This document shows positions 1 to 44,184 of a stretch of 64,000 nt of DNA, piece by piece. The notes under the pieces are model-generated. The model worked only from the letters and a program-made list of their open reading frames with translations, was not told the origin of the DNA and searched no databases. Positions within the stretch are counted from its first letter, which is position 1. Every line of letters starts with the position of its first letter. A program made the position numbers and the translations under genes. The DNA is from Bacillota bacterium (GTDB lineage: Bacteria; Bacillota; Sulfobacillia; Sulfobacillales; Sulfobacillaceae), in NCBI GenBank assembly GCA_021797515.1, contig JAJZZP010000113.1, positions 1 to 64,000 of the forward strand, read 5' to 3'.

Positions 1-172
1 TTCGGAAACTAGGGCCGGAGCGGTCCGAAGTCACGCCCGGGGAGATCACACAAGACGTGGGGGGCCCACGGCCTCCCACGCAGCGGTCAATGAGCCAGGA
101 ATTTCTGGGAACGAATCCAGAACCCCCCGCCTCGGCCTCGTAGAGGCCAGGCGGCGGGAGAAGTTCATACTT
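1..172 (+). mobile_element. 3' tail of an IS1341/IS605-type TnpB element with right-end hairpin (remnant)
   Basis: The first 110 bases read as the basic, Gly/Arg/Ser-rich tail typical of TnpB C-termini (ending around PRSGQ then TGA) with one in-frame TAG. It is followed by a GC-rich hairpin (about 125-165, GCCTC..GAGGC core) and a GGCGGGAGAAGTTCA-like right end. The intact tnpB at 22135-23292 has the same arrangement of basic tail, hairpin and right end. The element is cut by the window edge. The hairpin would be the 3' part of a TnpB guide (omega) RNA. The family call rests on architecture, not on conserved catalytic residues, which lie outside the window. Confidence 0.4.
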
Positions 173-3468: not shown

Positions 3469-3830
3469 CTTGAGTTTCGCACCCTCAAAATACGCTACTT
3501 TGAGGTGCCCATTATTCCGCGAACCTTGGGAATCCGCTACTTTTTCCGCTTTCCGCTTTCCACTTTGGCCATTTAGGCGGACTGATTGAATGCTTGTAAT
3601 TGATCACCCAGGAAGGACTCTGCAAACAGGGTTTTGAGGGTGGCATATTCTGGCGACCGTTGAAATTGTGCGAGATCCACGGTGCCCGATTCCGCGATTG
3701 AGGTCAGGACGACCTGCAAGAGTTCCTCGAACAAGGCCCATAGGCGTTGCGCCAAGTTTTCTCGACCAACTCGGCGACAATACCTTCAAACAGAGCGCCC
3801 ACGGATTGGTACGCCTCGACTCGCCGTCGT
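3469..3830 (-). pseudogene. Truncated left copy of the IS4-type element (transposase C-terminus only)
   Basis: Minus-strand translation from about 3827 gives RRVEAYQSVGALFEGIVAEL and then, after a one-base loss in an A run near 3757, AQRLWALFEELLQVV through to FNQSA and stop at 3573. This matches the C-terminal 90 residues of the complete copy at 8191-9624 almost residue for residue. The non-coding left end (3469-3572) matches the first 100 bases of the other copy loosely, so the two copies are diverged relatives and not a recent duplication. Similarity stops abruptly at about 3830. Confidence 0.85.
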
Positions 3831-3857
3831 CGAACGATTTCCTCGCCTCTCCTCCCC

Positions 3858-3891
3858 GAACCGGACATGCACCTCTCAGCGCATCCGGCTC
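3858..3891 (-). ncRNA. Group II intron-like hairpin remnant
   Basis: On the minus strand the sequence GAGCCGGATGCG...GTCCGGTTC folds into a hairpin followed by GGGGAGG. This looks like the conserved stem found just 5' of the reverse transcriptase frame in bacterial group II introns. No reverse transcriptase or domain V was found nearby, so at most a scrap remains. It sits exactly where the left IS copy is truncated, so an intron may have caused the truncation. Recognition is from memory of the motif and is tentative. Confidence 0.3.
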
Positions 3892-4079
3892 TCTATTTAG
3901 GTGTCCGCTTAAAGCGAAGGCCACATCAGCATAACGGGACTCATGACGGCGAACCGGATGGTCCACCAGCGTCAGGAGATACGGATTTCCCACGGGGGGT
4001 ACGCCAGAGAAACCGACTTTTTGGGGTGGTCACCAAGCGCTTCAACGCGACGGTCACACGGGGTGTTCGTGGTCGCCTT

Positions 4080-20486: not shown

Positions 20487-21534
20487 TGTGTAGCCCGAAA
20501 TTACCTTGCGCCTTGGATGAACTCTCCGCCCATCGAACCCCGGCGGGTTGCGATGAGGGTTTCTGAGGTCGCCCTCAGAAGTTCCTGGTTCTGTGATCGC
20601 TGCGCCGTGGCATTAGGCATCGTGCGTCTTATGCCGGATCTCCTCCGGGCGTCGATTCGGACCGTTCCGGCCCTATGGCCTTATTATGGAACAAAAGTTT
20701 CGCAATGTCTGGCCCTACGGGCTTGCCCGCTTGAGCCCCTTCCCGGCTTCCCCCGGGAAGGGGAATGCACGGGCATTATGTTCAAATACATAACAACACT
20801 TTGAACCTGTTGCAATGCGAGGCGCAGATAGGGTATGTTGGCGGTGGGCCAGACATTGACGGAATCGGCAATCCATTGTGCCAACCAGGTCGGATTATTG
20901 GGATCATTCGTCGGCGCCATTAACGATGTGACAACTTTCGCAGGTCTGTGGGTGGCAATCTTTGTGCGCATGGCTAACTCTTTCGCTGGGGCGACATTGG
21001 CAACAGTTCGTCGGTGGCGATAAGTGGTGGGCATCTAGGTATAATCAAGGCTAGAAACATTTTGCAAACGAAAATTGCCGGATAGACATACGGTGGCTGC
21101 CCAGATTCATTATAAGTGGGAATAGCCGCCAAGATGATCGAGAGAATGCCGAACGCCAGCAAATATGAAGGGGGGCCTTCCGGGCCAGCTATTAGGATTG
21201 AGATTCAACCGGTGCGCCGCTTTTCCCAAGGGATATAGCATCATCGAAATGATAGAGTCATGAGCGCTTCCCACACTGAACCCTAGCGGGAGTTTCCGAC
21301 TCAGAGGGCCGATCGACGTCAAAGGGGAGTTCGACATGTTGGCAGACATCTCGTGAACTCCTAGCGCTCCAACGTTAATCTAGCTAAGTTGTCAGGATCC
21401 TACCGACGCTTTTATTTGCTGTGGGGTGCCAACCGCAAGATACATGGGGAAAAAGACTGCCAGTACAGCGAACGCATAAGGGACCAGCCACTTGACGATA
21501 TGGTCTCAGGATGCCACAACGAAAAAAATCCTCT
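20487..21534. other. Decayed region with membrane-protein scraps
   Basis: About 1 kb with no intact gene. A strong hairpin CCCCTTCCCGG / CCGGGAAGGGG lies at 20736-20763. On the minus strand, short hydrophobic segments are in different frames: a WLVPYAFAVLAVFFPMYLAVG helix near 21480-21420 and SYLLAFGILSIILAAIPTYN near 21170-21110. They look like pieces of one decayed transporter or membrane enzyme, but I cannot name the family. Small frames at 20517-20804 and 21034-20684 are unsupported. Confidence 0.45.
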
Positions 21535-39651: not shown

Positions 39652-40650
39652 TTAAGAGACCATAAGCGAAGCGGCGGCAGTTTTTAACGCCACGAGAGCA
39701 GGGTCTACCAAAATGTTGGGGTATTTTTTAGAATCGCCATTTCCCGATAGCCACTCTTGGGCAAGTGACAGTGCTGTACGGTAGGATGAGTGCAAATCCC
39801 ACAGATCCTGATTCGGTGGTTCTGTTTGCCATGATGTCATATCGATAATCTCATCGCTGGGACTGACACTCATAGCATGGGGAGCAGTTGCTAGAGTGAC
39901 TCCCAGAGACAGTGAGGGAATCACTACATGGTCAATTTGGCTCGGATCCCATTCGCAATGGAATAGTTGAACATCAAACCCTGTAAGCATGGCCCGTTCT
40001 GCAAACCAGCGGATAAGGGTGGTATGGTCGATTCCTAAAGGTCCTTCAAATCGAATTCGGTGCGAAATCCCATTAAATGCATCGGTCAAGAACATCATCC
40101 ATCCTTGAAAACTTATGCTGGAACCAAAATAATGTGAGGCGATGCCATCCTCAGAGCCAAAATCTGTTAAGTAAGATGCTAGCCGGCTTCGCGTTTCTGC
40201 GATCCTATCGATATCCAGAGAATGCTGCACACACTCGATTATTTCGTCACGCGCGGCCTTGGCCATTCCCAGTAAAGCAGGCACTCGCCTAGGCAACGGG
40301 GTGAGTTCGGAACCGCTCGGGCAGCGATCCTCGCCGATAGGTATGGTAAGGATGTTTCGGGCAATAGTATGAATGTTGCTGGAAACTACGAATTCCGAGG
40401 TGATGCAGATACGATTACCCACTAACACGGCAACCAGGCATTCAGGGTTCAGAGCAGAATGAAACACCTGGGCATGATCGGGAAAGATGGCAGTGGCCAG
40501 ATATTGTTGTAATATCGCGGATACCAGGTGAGGAGAACCTTTCGTTAGTAAGATGACAGTTTCCGCACGGCTTAACAAGTCCGGGTAAAAATCGCGAATG
40601 CCCCAAGGCGTAATCGCCTCGGCAAGATAATGCGAGATGTTGGTAGTCAT
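39652..40650 (-). CDS. PRK06851-like protein lacking both P-loop motifs
   Basis: 332 residues, ATG at 40650 with GGGAG upstream. The C-terminal half has GFDVQLFHCEWDPSQIDHVV, IPSLSLGVTLATAPH, which closely resembles the repeat unit of PRK06851-type tandem P-loop ATPases (xxHCxxDPxSLDHVVIPxL..AxxDGTAPH). The place of Walker A reads GPLGIDHTTL, with His for the invariant Lys. The N-terminal repeat (VILLTKGSPHLVSAIL ... VFHSALNPECLVAVLV) has lost it too. The protein probably no longer hydrolyses ATP. Function unknown even for the intact family. Confidence 0.6.
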   Translation of the reverse strand: MTTNISHYLAEAITPWGIRDFYPDLLSRAETVILLTKGSPHLVSAILQQYLATAIFPDHAQVFHSALNPECLVAVLVGNRICITSEFVVSSNIHTIARNILTIPIGEDRCPSGSELTPLPRRVPALLGMAKAARDEIIECVQHSLDIDRIAETRSRLASYLTDFGSEDGIASHYFGSSISFQGWMMFLTDAFNGISHRIRFEGPLGIDHTTLIRWFAERAMLTGFDVQLFHCEWDPSQIDHVVIPSLSLGVTLATAPHAMSVSPSDEIIDMTSWQTEPPNQDLWDLHSSYRTALSLAQEWLSGNGDSKKYPNILVDPALVALKTAAASLMVS

Positions 40651-40754
40651 TATCCAGTCTCCCTGCTCGAATTGGTGTATTGGCATGATACGAAACTCTT
40701 CCCCTAAAGGTTCCAGAATGCCGCCAGGCTAGGGAAGACCAAGACCGGTCGATA

Positions 40755-40822: not shown

Positions 40823-41059
40823 ATGGCTGTTGTGGTTTACACGACCCCGACTTGACCCCATTGCCGGACGGCCAAGAAGTTCTTGCAAGAACGTAAGGTG
40901 CCGTTCAAAGAAGTGGACGTAACCAAAGGTCCTGCCGCGGCGCAAGAACTGCAACGAAAGTCCGGACAAACCGGCGTGCCGGTGATAATTGTGAACGGAA
41001 CCGTGATTGTCGGGTTTGATCGTCCGAAGTTAGTACGAGCGCTGGGCGTTCGTGACTAA
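40823..41059 (+). CDS. Glutaredoxin-like selenoprotein (UPHC active site)
   Basis: 78 residues if TGA at 40853-40855 (codon 11) is read as selenocysteine. ATG at 40823 is 9 bases after TAGGAGG. The frame reads VVVYTTPT-U-PHCRTAKKFLQ, then VPFKEVDVTKGP, the cis-proline TGVPVIIVNG and VIVGFDRPKL, a complete glutaredoxin/NrdH fold in which only the first catalytic cysteine is replaced by TGA. No other stop or frameshift occurs, and a promoter and terminator flank it. A 5-bp hairpin with a TGCA loop (40879-40892) lies 28 bases... from the TGA end to its loop 28 bases intervene, within the bacterial SECIS range. Substrate: probably a protein disulfide, persulfide or peroxiredoxin partner (inference). 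Confidence 0.85.
40879..40892 (+). promoter_or_regulatory. Candidate bacterial SECIS hairpin in the glutaredoxin mRNA
   Basis: GTTCT-TGCA-AGAAC, with G in the apical loop and 28 bases between the UGA and the loop. A longer ACGGC/GCCGT pairing can enclose it. SelB-binding SECIS elements in bacteria are small hairpins about 16-37 bases after the UGA. The fit is by inspection only. Confidence 0.45.
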
Positions 41060-41067
41060 GACGGGCC

Positions 41068-41113
41068 ACATCCCATTCGCTCTGGAAAAAACGGGCCGAA
41101 TGGGATGTTTTTT
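41068..41113 (+). terminator. Terminator of the selenocysteine glutaredoxin gene
   Basis: Stem ACATCCCATTCG / CGAATGGGATGT followed by TTTTTT. Confidence 0.8.
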
Positions 41114-41132: not shown

Positions 41133-41169
41133 AAAAACGGCTATGTTCCACAATAGGGAACATAGCCGT
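41133..41169 (-). terminator. Terminator of the persulfide/selenoprotein operon
   Basis: Minus-strand hairpin ACGGCTATGTTCC / GGAACATAGCCGT followed by TTTTT. It lies 17 bases beyond the stop codon reached only if the TGA at 41404 is read through, which supports the longer gene. Confidence 0.8.
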
Positions 41170-41185
41170 GTACGTTTTGACTGCC

Positions 41186-41833
41186 TTATTTTTGCGCATC
41201 CATCACCAGTTTGAGCAGCTGAGATTCAGGTACAGCGCCAGTTGCTTCCAGTTTGCCGTTAATCATGGACTTGGGGACACCATAAACGCTGTACTTGTTG
41301 GATAACTCGGGGAATTCCCCGGCATCAATCATATCCGCGATAATGTGTGGTGATTCCAAAGCCATTTCATGAGCCAGGCGTACAGCCCGGGGACAATATG
41401 GTCAAGTCGGGGTGGTAAACACCTGGATGTGAAGCGGATTTTGGATCGTGGCCAGCTGGTCGCGGGCCCTTGCGCTGAGGGTGCTGGCGTGGGTGGACAC
41501 GGATTTCAGAGCCTCTAGAAATGCGCCAAATTCATGTCCACTGGGAATGCCCAAAAACCTGACGCCGGTGTGCCGACCGGTATTATCCAACAGTTCCGCG
41601 ACTGGCCCCGTGATGGCTTCGTTACCAGCGTGACCAGGTTCTAATACGGGTGCGGTATCCGTGGTTTTAACCATTACCAAATCGGATAAATCCGCCACTT
41701 CATTGATTAACTCGCTGAAAGTTTCCGCCATTTCCGGCTCGGGTCCGGCAAAAAATTCAACCGTCACCGAATCCTGCATTGCTTCGAAAAACTGGGATAC
41801 TTGCTGACTAACTTGGCTGTCGAGTAAAGCCAT
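41186..41833 (-). CDS. Protein disulfide oxidoreductase (PDO)-like selenoprotein (UPYC active site)
   Basis: 215 residues if TGA at 41404-41402 (codon 144) is selenocysteine. ATG at 41833 follows AAAGGAGG. The frame reads HIQVFTTPT-U-PYCPRAVRLAHEMA, then YSVYGVPKSMINGKLEATGA with the cis-proline, and stops at TAA 41186. Two thioredoxin folds are present, as in archaeal-type PDO. The N-terminal one (VEFFAGPEPEMAETF) has no CxxC, so all redox chemistry depends on U144/C147. It is the last gene of a minus-strand operon with a persulfide dioxygenase-like protein and a rhodanese. The matched TTPT-U-P-x-C context in the neighbouring glutaredoxin gene argues strongly against a chance stop. Confidence 0.87.
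41374..41390 (-). promoter_or_regulatory. Candidate bacterial SECIS hairpin in the PDO mRNA
   Basis: Minus-strand CCGGGC-TGTAC-GCCTGG forms a 6-bp stem (one G-U pair) with G in the second loop position; the loop starts 17 bases after the UGA. This suits a short bacterial SECIS but needs SelB-aware prediction. Confidence 0.45.
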
Positions 41834-41907: not shown

Positions 41908-42528
41908 TTAAGCCCGTTGCACCGGATGACGGGCGCCAATCCAGAGCGACATTCCGCCGACCACATTTGCGACGTTGAAGCCTTGTTGTGAGAGCCATGC
42001 GGCAACTGAAGCACTACGACTCCCCGAAGCACAGACGATTGCGTGAGCCCGTGACTTGTCTAACTCGGCGACCCGCTGTTCCAGTTGTCCCATTGGAATG
42101 CTGATAGCGCCTGGGATAGTTCCGGATCGCAGTTCATATGGTTCCCGAACATCAACGACAATATAATTCTCAAGGTTTTGGGCCAACTCGTCAACCGTGA
42201 GATCGTGCACTCGGGCAACCGGCAACCCGGCCGCTTCCCACCCTTTGACGCCTTGATCGAAGACAAACGGAACGTTTAGTCCAGCGCCCAGCAAACTGTT
42301 TTTTGCCGCTTCGGCAATGACCGTGTTTTCGGCAAAGATGCCAATGGGCGGATTTTGTCCCTGCAAGGCACGCTTAACATCGTGCCCCCATTGGCGCTGA
42401 TGAAAGGGAAAGTTGTAGCTTCCCACCGGATGTGCTTTGGAATACGTGTGAGGTGGATTGACATCCAACAAGATGACCGTTCCTTGTTGTACCTGTTCCA
42501 TAAAATCCTGTGCCGTCATTGATTCCAC
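41908..42528 (-). CDS. Tandem rhodanese-domain sulfurtransferase
   Basis: 206 residues, two rhodanese domains. The C-terminal one (YIVVDVREPYELRSGTIPGA) carries the active-site loop IVCASGSRSAS with its persulfide-forming cysteine. The N-terminal one (VILLDVNPPHTYSKAHPVGS) has IGIFAENTVIA where the loop should be, so it has no cysteine and is probably structural. RBS AAGGAGG; the GTG at 42528 or the ATG three codons later may be used. It lies between the persulfide dioxygenase-like gene (39-base gap) and the selenoprotein (74-base gap). Confidence 0.88.
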   Translation of the reverse strand: MESMTAQDFMEQVQQGTVILLDVNPPHTYSKAHPVGSYNFPFHQRQWGHDVKRALQGQNPPIGIFAENTVIAEAAKNSLLGAGLNVPFVFDQGVKGWEAAGLPVARVHDLTVDELAQNLENYIVVDVREPYELRSGTIPGAISIPMGQLEQRVAELDKSRAHAIVCASGSRSASVAAWLSQQGFNVANVVGGMSLWIGARHPVQRA

Positions 42529-42567: not shown

Positions 42568-43329
42568 TTACGCAAGAGTGGGGACACCCAAGTTTGCTGC
42601 TCTGATAGCCGCTGCGCTTTCTGGTGGCGGTTTTAACAGCATCAGCACTTGGTCGACAAATTGATCTGGGTCACTAATTTGTGCGAAGCGGTTCCATCGC
42701 CTCTCAAATCCAATCGTGGACACTGGTTTAGGGCTTAAAAACAACCCTCCGCATGCTGATGCCCCATAGTGTGCCGGATACAACTCCGTGGTATCTGGCA
42801 GGGTGAGAATTTTCTCGTGAATCGAATGAAATTGCTCCAACGCGGCTTCTCTTACCATTTCTGGAGTGGGATCAACCAGGTCTGGGCGCCCCACGTCGCC
42901 GACAAATAGGGAGTCGCCACTTAACACGAACCAGGGTTCGTTAGAACGTGTGGAGTCAGTTATCACTAGTGAAATACTATCAGGGGTATGGCCAGGCGTT
43001 TCCCAAACGGTGGCGCAAGCATGACCTAAGTCAAGCACGTCATCCTGAGAGAGCGGATTAAAAGCATAGGCAACCGGAGCACGATGGCTCAAAGAAACCA
43101 TTAGTCCAGTTTTCTCTGCGAGTTCTCGAGCGGCTGAATGATGGTCTGCGTGGACATGGGTTTCCACAATGGCCTTGATTTCTAATCCTAGTTCCGTCGC
43201 GCTTAAGATATAGGAATCTGCGCCAATATTTTCTAGGGGGTCTACGACCATGCCTTGGCCCAATGCTTCATCACCGAAAAGAAATGAGGCGCACCCCATT
43301 GATCCATCCCACATGGGAACAAAAATCAT
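42568..43329 (-). CDS. Persulfide dioxygenase-like metallo-beta-lactamase protein
   Basis: 253 residues. The metal motif is VETHVHADHHSAA (HxHxDH), with later VWETPGHTPDSISLV, LSGDSLFVGDVGRPDL and YPAHYGASACGG, all as in ETHE1/CstB-type enzymes that oxidise glutathione or other low-molecular-weight persulfides to sulfite. RBS GAGGAGGG. First gene of the operon, reading away from the CsoR/CstR-type gene and controlled from the shared operator region. Confidence 0.88.
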   Translation of the reverse strand: MIFVPMWDGSMGCASFLFGDEALGQGMVVDPLENIGADSYILSATELGLEIKAIVETHVHADHHSAARELAEKTGLMVSLSHRAPVAYAFNPLSQDDVLDLGHACATVWETPGHTPDSISLVITDSTRSNEPWFVLSGDSLFVGDVGRPDLVDPTPEMVREAALEQFHSIHEKILTLPDTTELYPAHYGASACGGLFLSPKPVSTIGFERRWNRFAQISDPDQFVDQVLMLLKPPPESAAAIRAANLGVPTLA

Positions 43330-43432: not shown

Positions 43433-43762
43433 TTGGTAGCCAGGGGGGCGATTAAGATTACGGACAAGGAACATCCGGAACGGCCTGTGGTTATCGGCCA
43501 ATATTGGGATACGGCGGATTTAATCCGCCGCATGCGCAGGATTGAGGGACAAGCGCGGGGGATCCAAGCGATGTTGGAGCGCGAAGAGGATTGTAAAGCC
43601 ATATTGACACAATTGTCGGCTATGGCGGGAGCCTTAAATCAAGTGGCACGGGTAGTGGGGGCCTGCGGACTGGTCGACAGTCTAAGGCGGAATGCGTCCA
43701 AGCTTAATCCTGAGGATATCCGGGCGGTATTGGAAGATTTGCAGTCGCGGGGACGGTTATAA
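43433..43762 (+). CDS. CsoR/CstR-family repressor with unusual cysteine placement
   Basis: 109 residues. LIRRMRRIEGQARGIQAMLE and EEDCKAILTQLSAMAGALNQVAR are the DUF156 helices of copper- or persulfide-sensing repressors, with the first conserved Cys present. The second helix reads VVGACGLVDSLRRN. Aligned to CstR (xNLIECV) and CsoR (HLxxCV), the usual Cys position is Ser and the only Cys lies five residues earlier; the copper-ligand His is absent. It is therefore not a copper sensor and probably a persulfide sensor. The TTG start has no clear RBS and a later start is possible. Confidence 0.82.
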   Translation: MVARGAIKITDKEHPERPVVIGQYWDTADLIRRMRRIEGQARGIQAMLEREEDCKAILTQLSAMAGALNQVARVVGACGLVDSLRRNASKLNPEDIRAVLEDLQSRGRL

Positions 43763-43800
43763 CTGAGCCAAAGACACGTATAAGATAAGGAGTGATTTTT

Positions 43801-44184
43801 TTGTTCGCATACACAAAATCCACCAGCAAAACCCAAGAAGAAGCTATTCTAAGTGTCCAAATGTCGGTGGAGGCTGAAGGTTTCAAGGTGTTAAATGCCT
43901 TGGACATCGGCAACATTCTTCGCAGCAAAGGCTTGGAACGGGAGCCTATTGTCATTTTGGAGGTCTGTCATGCCAAATCGGCTTATACTTTGCTAGAGAA
44001 CCATATCGACATGGGGTTGTTCCTGCCCTGTAAAATCAATATCTATCGTCAAAACGGACAGACCTTCATTTCCGCCTTAGATCCGCATTTCATTACGAAA
44101 TTGATTCGCATCGATTCCCAGGTCGAGAAATTGGTAGACGAAATTTCTTCCGTAATCTATCGCGCTGTGGACAATGCGGTATAG
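43801..44184 (+). CDS. DUF302-family protein
   Basis: 127 residues, TTG at 43801 8 bases after TAAGGAG (a GTG at 43792 would overlap the RBS). EAILSVQMSVEAEGFKVLNALDI, then VILEVCHAKSAYTLLENHIDMGLFLPCKI matches DUF302, a domain of unknown role often found with persulfide- and sulfur-oxidation genes. The cysteines in EVCHAK and LPCKI are the obvious candidates for thiol chemistry. It follows the repressor gene by about 38 bases. Confidence 0.8.
   Translation: MFAYTKSTSKTQEEAILSVQMSVEAEGFKVLNALDIGNILRSKGLEREPIVILEVCHAKSAYTLLENHIDMGLFLPCKINIYRQNGQTFISALDPHFITKLIRIDSQVEKLVDEISSVIYRAVDNAV

Follow-up and report, generated by a model that had tools for sequence, protein, structure and literature searches.

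A UPYC protein disulfide oxidoreductase of a Sulfobacillus-type bacterium is very probably a selenoprotein, with a plausible role in sulfane-sulfur handling

Does a gene with an in-frame TGA at its catalytic position encode an intact redox enzyme and, if so, for which chemistry? The question is raised by a protein disulfide oxidoreductase (PDO)-like gene located in a 64,000-nucleotide stretch of DNA from a Sulfobacillus-type bacterium, hereafter the window (Table 1). Read on the minus strand, the gene extends from its start at 41833 to its last codon at 41189. A single in-frame TGA, codon 144, is found in the context VFTTPT-U-PYC and is followed by 71 residues. The initial annotation, in which the strand was unstated, had already reported this codon and its context, as well as a T-tailed terminator beyond the TGA. 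A strong terminator-like hairpin with a T tail is indeed observed 3' of the stop codon (-22.8 kcal/mol, z -6.7). As argued below, the gene very probably encodes a selenocysteine (Sec)-decoded UPYC PDO of the TIGR02187 family, with a SECIS element and a plausible sulfane-sulfur role.

Table 1 Coordinates of the features of the PDO locus in the window.
Feature	Position	Strand	Remarks
PDO-like selenoprotein CDS (predicted)	41186..41833	minus	215 codons including Sec144; TAA stop 41188-41186
In-frame TGA, codon 144, predicted Sec of UPYC	41402..41404	minus	
Predicted SECIS apical hairpin	41374..41390	minus	CCGGGC-UGUAC-GCCUGG, GU in loop
Terminator-like hairpin, T tail, 3' of PDO CDS	41137..41169	minus	
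Glutaredoxin-like selenoprotein (predicted), UPHC, facing the PDO gene	40823..41059	plus	TIGR02196 and NF041212 over cut-off
In-frame TGA, codon 11 of glutaredoxin-like gene	40853..40855	plus	YTTPT-U-PHC
Terminator-like hairpin, T tail, 3' of glutaredoxin-like gene	41068..41108	plus	
Double-domain rhodanese	41908..42528	minus	Second domain alone keeps catalytic-type Cys (VCASGSRS)
Metallo-beta-lactamase-fold hydrolase, CstB-like	42568..43329	minus	PDB matches
CsoR/FrmR-family repressor, divergent	43433..43762	plus	PF02583
DUF302 protein	43792..44184	plus	Recurring beside the module in several relatives

The protein scores 206.7 bits with the NCBIfam family TIGR02187.2 (PDO_seleno_TRX), above the curated cut-off of 185, over positions 2-208 of 209. 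A phmmer search of the PDB aligns residues 13-213 with the Pyrococcus-type PDOs 1j08 and 1a8l, likewise made of two thioredoxin folds. Alignment with CPYC oxidoreductases had been proposed as a check of the initial annotation. In this alignment, UPYC (residues 144-147), located in the C-terminal thioredoxin fold as the C/UxxC motif of TIGR02187 type, faces the C-terminal CPYC of both structures. The N-terminal CQYC of 1j08 and 1a8l faces PEMAE, and the N-terminal fold contains no CxxC, as first annotated. A two-site PDO of archaeal type is thus ruled out. Because UPYC matches CPYC and the N-terminal CQYC falls on PEMAE, the protein is predicted to be a one-site, Sec-containing PDO. It differs from the archaeal enzymes by the absence of their extra N-terminal site and by the replacement of the first C-terminal Cys with a putative Sec.

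This kind of protein is already known. The TIGR02187-type family is listed among selenoprotein families as 'homolog of AhpF N-terminal domain' (Grx-like domain protein), with a UxxC motif and a bacterial SECIS immediately downstream (PMC13188914, PMC9312934, PMC1794560). It has been described in Carboxydothermus and Symbiobacterium (PMC1794560) and appears in a 2026 inventory (PMC13188914). The papers that we found contain no report of a TIGR02187 selenoprotein from Sulfobacillus. The family is patchy among 199 sampled genomes of the phylum and has members in 17 of them (E <= 1e-30). UGA forms as well as stop-free ones occur in this sample, so the Sec form is not limited to the Sulfobacillus lineage. 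The novelty lies in the lineage and in the gene neighbourhood: compared with the earlier reports, the gene occurs nearly everywhere in the order as sampled, in multiple copies, and is set among sulfane-sulfur genes.

A search of 41 genomes gave PDO matches in 37, and 30 orthologue loci from Sulfobacillus relatives were fetched for comparison at the codon level. The closest named record, a Sulfobacillus benefaciens MAG, shows 93% protein identity. The PDO gene of the cultivated strain S. thermotolerans Kr1 shares the TGA as well as the stem of the hairpin described below. The active-site codon is TGA in 28 of the 30 orthologues, each of which has exactly one TGA, followed by 71-77 conserved codons. 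Relatives ending at the TGA, with an unconserved downstream part, had been named as the observation that would overturn the initial annotation; these 28 sequences display the opposite. Two other PDO-like sequences were also seen. One is a stop-free match over residues 35-211 (G033:C56:65321-65842), in a genome with SelA, SelB and tRNA-Sec. The other is a PDO with CPYC (TGT) and 36-37% identity (L174:229-867), on a contig binned as Candidatus Micrarchaeota.

A bare internal stop, considered alone, could denote a decaying pseudogene or a sequencing error. Against this, the TGA is shared by 28 genomes at the same codon with an intact downstream frame, and it recurs at homologous codons in other UGA redoxins. 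Conservation past the TGA, together with the synonymous constraint on the SECIS stem described below, refutes pseudogene and error alike, to which we give a negligible probability; the initial annotation had held them very unlikely. N-terminal thioredoxin folds can be stable in isolation, so that a functional short product, terminated ahead of the TGA, might exist, with the downstream part translated separately as a domain of its own. Our analysis gave no support for such a form, which we consider extremely improbable. Its N-terminal part would be devoid of CxxC, and the TIGR02187 match spans the TGA in one piece. Moreover, the TGA follows closely on the strand IQVFTTPT within the C-terminal fold, so that termination at codon 144 would cut this domain.

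The case for a SECIS element was made by comparison, because the sole Rfam match in the window is a group II intron. This intron RNA domain (RF00029, 46.6 bits) is located at 3697-3893 on the minus strand. The stem of the candidate SECIS hairpin starts 11 nt past the TGA and pairs CCGGGC with GCCUGG around the loop UGUAC. Within the 28 UGA orthologues, the four columns under strongest synonymous constraint among 108 scorable codons are +4 (CCC in 25/28), +5 (CGG in 19/19), +8 (CGC in 26/26) and +9 (CTG in 26/28), all in or at the stem. The chance of all four falling within +4 to +9 is about 3e-6, a yardstick only, which assumes independence of the columns. In the two TGC orthologues, the corresponding stretch is no longer predicted to form the hairpin.

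No double-sided compensatory change was observed within the 28 orthologues, where residues and bases vary too little for covariation to be informative. Another 43 UGA gene copies of these genomes, for the most part paralogues with a few copies of the main type, align in register and without gaps. With these copies added, 97.3% of pair cells are kept and compensatory changes are found in five of the six SECIS pairs. Cells changed on both sides number 44, versus 8.3 +/- 2.4 in shuffles, where cells count sequences and not independent events. Stem variants include CCGGGC/GCCUGG, CCAGAU/AUCUGG, ACAUGC/GCAUGU, CCAUGU/ACAUGG and CGAGAC/GUCUCG. Loop positions 2-3 are G-U in 71 of 71 sequences (nGUnn). 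On this comparative evidence, the hairpin at 41390-41374 is assigned as a bacterial SECIS. It is the one put forward in the initial annotation, and stem constraint, compensatory changes and GU loop all bear that proposal out. A covariance model of these SECIS recovered only its four source genes in the source genome, plus one match on L165 (E 0.15) that lies, by eye, in transposase-like sequence and is likely due to chance. The search thus reveals no further selenoproteins.

The source genome contains selA, selB and selD. The selD gene is itself a selenoprotein gene, with the motif SGUGCK and a hairpin AGGTCC-GGA-GGACCT after the TGA. This predicted Sec in SelD is an independent indication, internal to the genome, that Sec is decoded. 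No selC was detected in the source assembly with Rfam, the selC sequence of the same-genus genome G004 or the flanks of that gene as queries; the flanks matched only dispersed repeats. Likewise, no tRNA-Sec exceeded the Rfam cut-off in G003, of the same genus. The source assembly is a 196-contig draft, 93.5% complete, and G003 is also a draft, of about 94%. In G004, selC is intact, with anticodon UCA. We take the missing selC as a gap in the draft assembly. We read in the same way the absence of a SelB match in G023 and of SelA matches in G021 and G027, three genomes that carry the UGA form and the other components.

In another genome of the genus, G001, only the 3' 71 nt of selC are present (L119:1501-1571). 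The 5' part is replaced by unrelated sequence, a pattern resembling the insertion of a mobile element at selC. A dispersed repeat found in the window at 1-133 (minus strand) and 20544-20675 (plus strand) also occurs downstream of selC in G004. It has dozens of matches in the source genome, several of them at contig ends.

The two TGC orthologues belong to G007 and G016, from one genus. In these genomes, no SelA or tRNA-Sec exceeded the cut-offs and no SelB was found. Their glutaredoxin-like gene also has Cys (TGC, TGT). Cys codons thus stand in place of TGA in two separate genes of a genus that lacks the decoding machinery. This genus would provide an almost ideal natural control for Sec decoding, and the comparative case for Sec in the PDO appears unusually clean.

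The UGA might be read as cysteine by an opal-suppressing tRNA-Cys of selC* type. Such tRNAs, some with UCA anticodons, are known from Firmicutes and other phyla (PMC7609411), and relatives of the source organism bear tRNA-Sec-like tRNA-Cys with a long variable arm. These second tRNA-Sec-like matches (L099:529-618, L101:564-652 and L102:559-652), called tRNA-Cys (GCA) by ARAGORN, resemble the selC* type of anaerobic Firmicutes (PMC7609411). In the source assembly, no tRNA-Cys of this kind reached the tRNA-Sec cut-off. Several observations make this reading very unlikely. All three tRNA-Cys have anticodon GCA, not UCA, and a canonical tRNA-Sec (UCA) is present in the same lineage. The constrained GU-loop hairpin is that expected for SelB, selA, selB and selD are present, and genomes without Sec machinery use TGC or TGT. 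Decoding of UGA144 as Sec, which would involve SelB and tRNA-Sec acting through the SECIS hairpin, is strongly supported by the comparison. Family score, conservation past the TGA, the match between Cys use and missing machinery, SECIS and selA/selB/selD agree with the UPYC PDO-like selenoprotein initially annotated.

As noted in that annotation, the gene facing the PDO gene also has a TGA at its catalytic position. It passes the cut-offs of Uxx-star and YruB-family glutaredoxin-like (seleno)proteins (NF041212; TIGR02196, GlrX_YruB), with the TGA at the UxxC position. UxxC glutaredoxins, too, are already listed as selenoproteins. The facing gene differs by its UPHC motif, and its SECIS hairpin, which scores 12.6 bits with the PDO SECIS model, is less distinct than the one in the PDO gene. 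Its Sec seems to be exchanged more freely, because Cys is found even in the machinery-bearing genomes G008, G010 and G022. The source genome also contains at least three further PDO-like TGA genes, with UPHC (C152), UMAC (C174) and UGHC (C76). On C6, a frame of about 276 residues has a C-terminal glutaredoxin-like domain with an active-site TGA, as USVC. Counting SelD and both genes of the window, the genome has at least seven candidate selenoproteins.

A persulfide-dioxygenase-like metallo-beta-lactamase (MBL)-fold hydrolase, a rhodanese and a CsoR-family repressor are all found together at the PDO locus. The rhodanese and MBL genes are located upstream of the PDO gene, on the same strand. 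The top PDB matches of the MBL protein are the MBL-rhodanese proteins 3tp9 and 3r2u, followed by BpPRF and the human persulfide dioxygenase ETHE1. The arrangement resembles the cst-type module, composed of a CstB metallo-hydrolase-rhodanese and a CstR repressor, in its similar MBL, double rhodanese and divergent CsoR-family repressor. It differs in that MBL and rhodanese are separate genes and a putative Sec PDO is added. One more gene of the window, at 39652-40686 (minus strand), encodes a 344-aa protein with no Pfam match. It shares 76% identity with its counterpart in G003 and 42% in G004; adjoining genes show 83-99% identity, and the 344-aa protein diverges fast.

The one-strand run MBL-rhodanese-PDO is found in G000, G003 and G004, and rhodanese, MBL or CsoR genes occur near the PDO gene in seven of the nine other genomes whose neighbourhoods were fetched. 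Some of the rhodanese, MBL, Grx, CsoR and DUF302 genes are near it in most other genera examined, in varying order. In G028, all tested neighbours are absent from the 13.6 kb fetched around the PDO gene. The initial annotation had placed the PDO gene at the end of a persulfide operon. This proposal is partly supported, in that the order of the genes and the CstB-like homologues agree with it; the order differs between genera. A persulfide role, as deduced from neighbourhood and homology, is plausible but unproven. The Sec PDO could instead be a general disulfide reductase or isomerase without any tie to persulfides, its neighbours being incidental. The variable order and the G028 locus speak for this, as does the classification of TIGR02187 PDOs such as 1a8l as disulfide oxidoreductases. 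The conserved run in three genomes and the recurrence in seven of nine others speak against it. We regard a general reductase as a serious possibility, at somewhat less than an even chance. Our best guess for the PDO protein is a role in reducing persulfides, or disulfides left by them.

We propose the following mechanism for the Sec-containing PDO. Its only active site would be the C-terminal UPYC, using Sec, within a two-domain thioredoxin-fold protein whose N-terminal fold, after loss of its CxxC, presumably has a structural role. The gene order and the homologies point to reduction of disulfides or persulfides (R-S-SH) as the most likely activity of the product. It may act in sulfane-sulfur handling alongside the neighbouring CstB-like metallo-hydrolase and rhodanese, the gene set being under the control of the CsoR-family repressor. 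A bolder and tentative idea, which we hold to be rather unlikely as it stands, is that Sulfobacillus-type acidophiles keep a lineage-specific Sec redoxin set, in which the PDO would be a dedicated seleno-persulfide reductase paired with the adjacent dioxygenase and rhodanese. The set in question comprises several PDO paralogues and glutaredoxins with similar SECIS hairpins. If the idea is true, Sec would serve sulfane-sulfur chemistry in an aerobe, and the PDO would feed, or be fed by, the persulfide dioxygenase and rhodanese.

Aerobic bacteria rarely retain selenoproteins, according to a 2026 review (PMC13188914). The prior mentions of selenoproteins in the lineage that we found are scattered and concern formate dehydrogenase (PMC4378227) and the peroxiredoxin PrxU (PMC7409299). 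The PDO gene, which automatic annotation might cut in two or shorten, would encode an intact selenoprotein, part of a Sec-rich redoxin set in acidophilic bioleaching bacteria. With the Sec/Cys pair offered by the genus without Sec machinery, what these redoxins gain from Sec could be tested directly.
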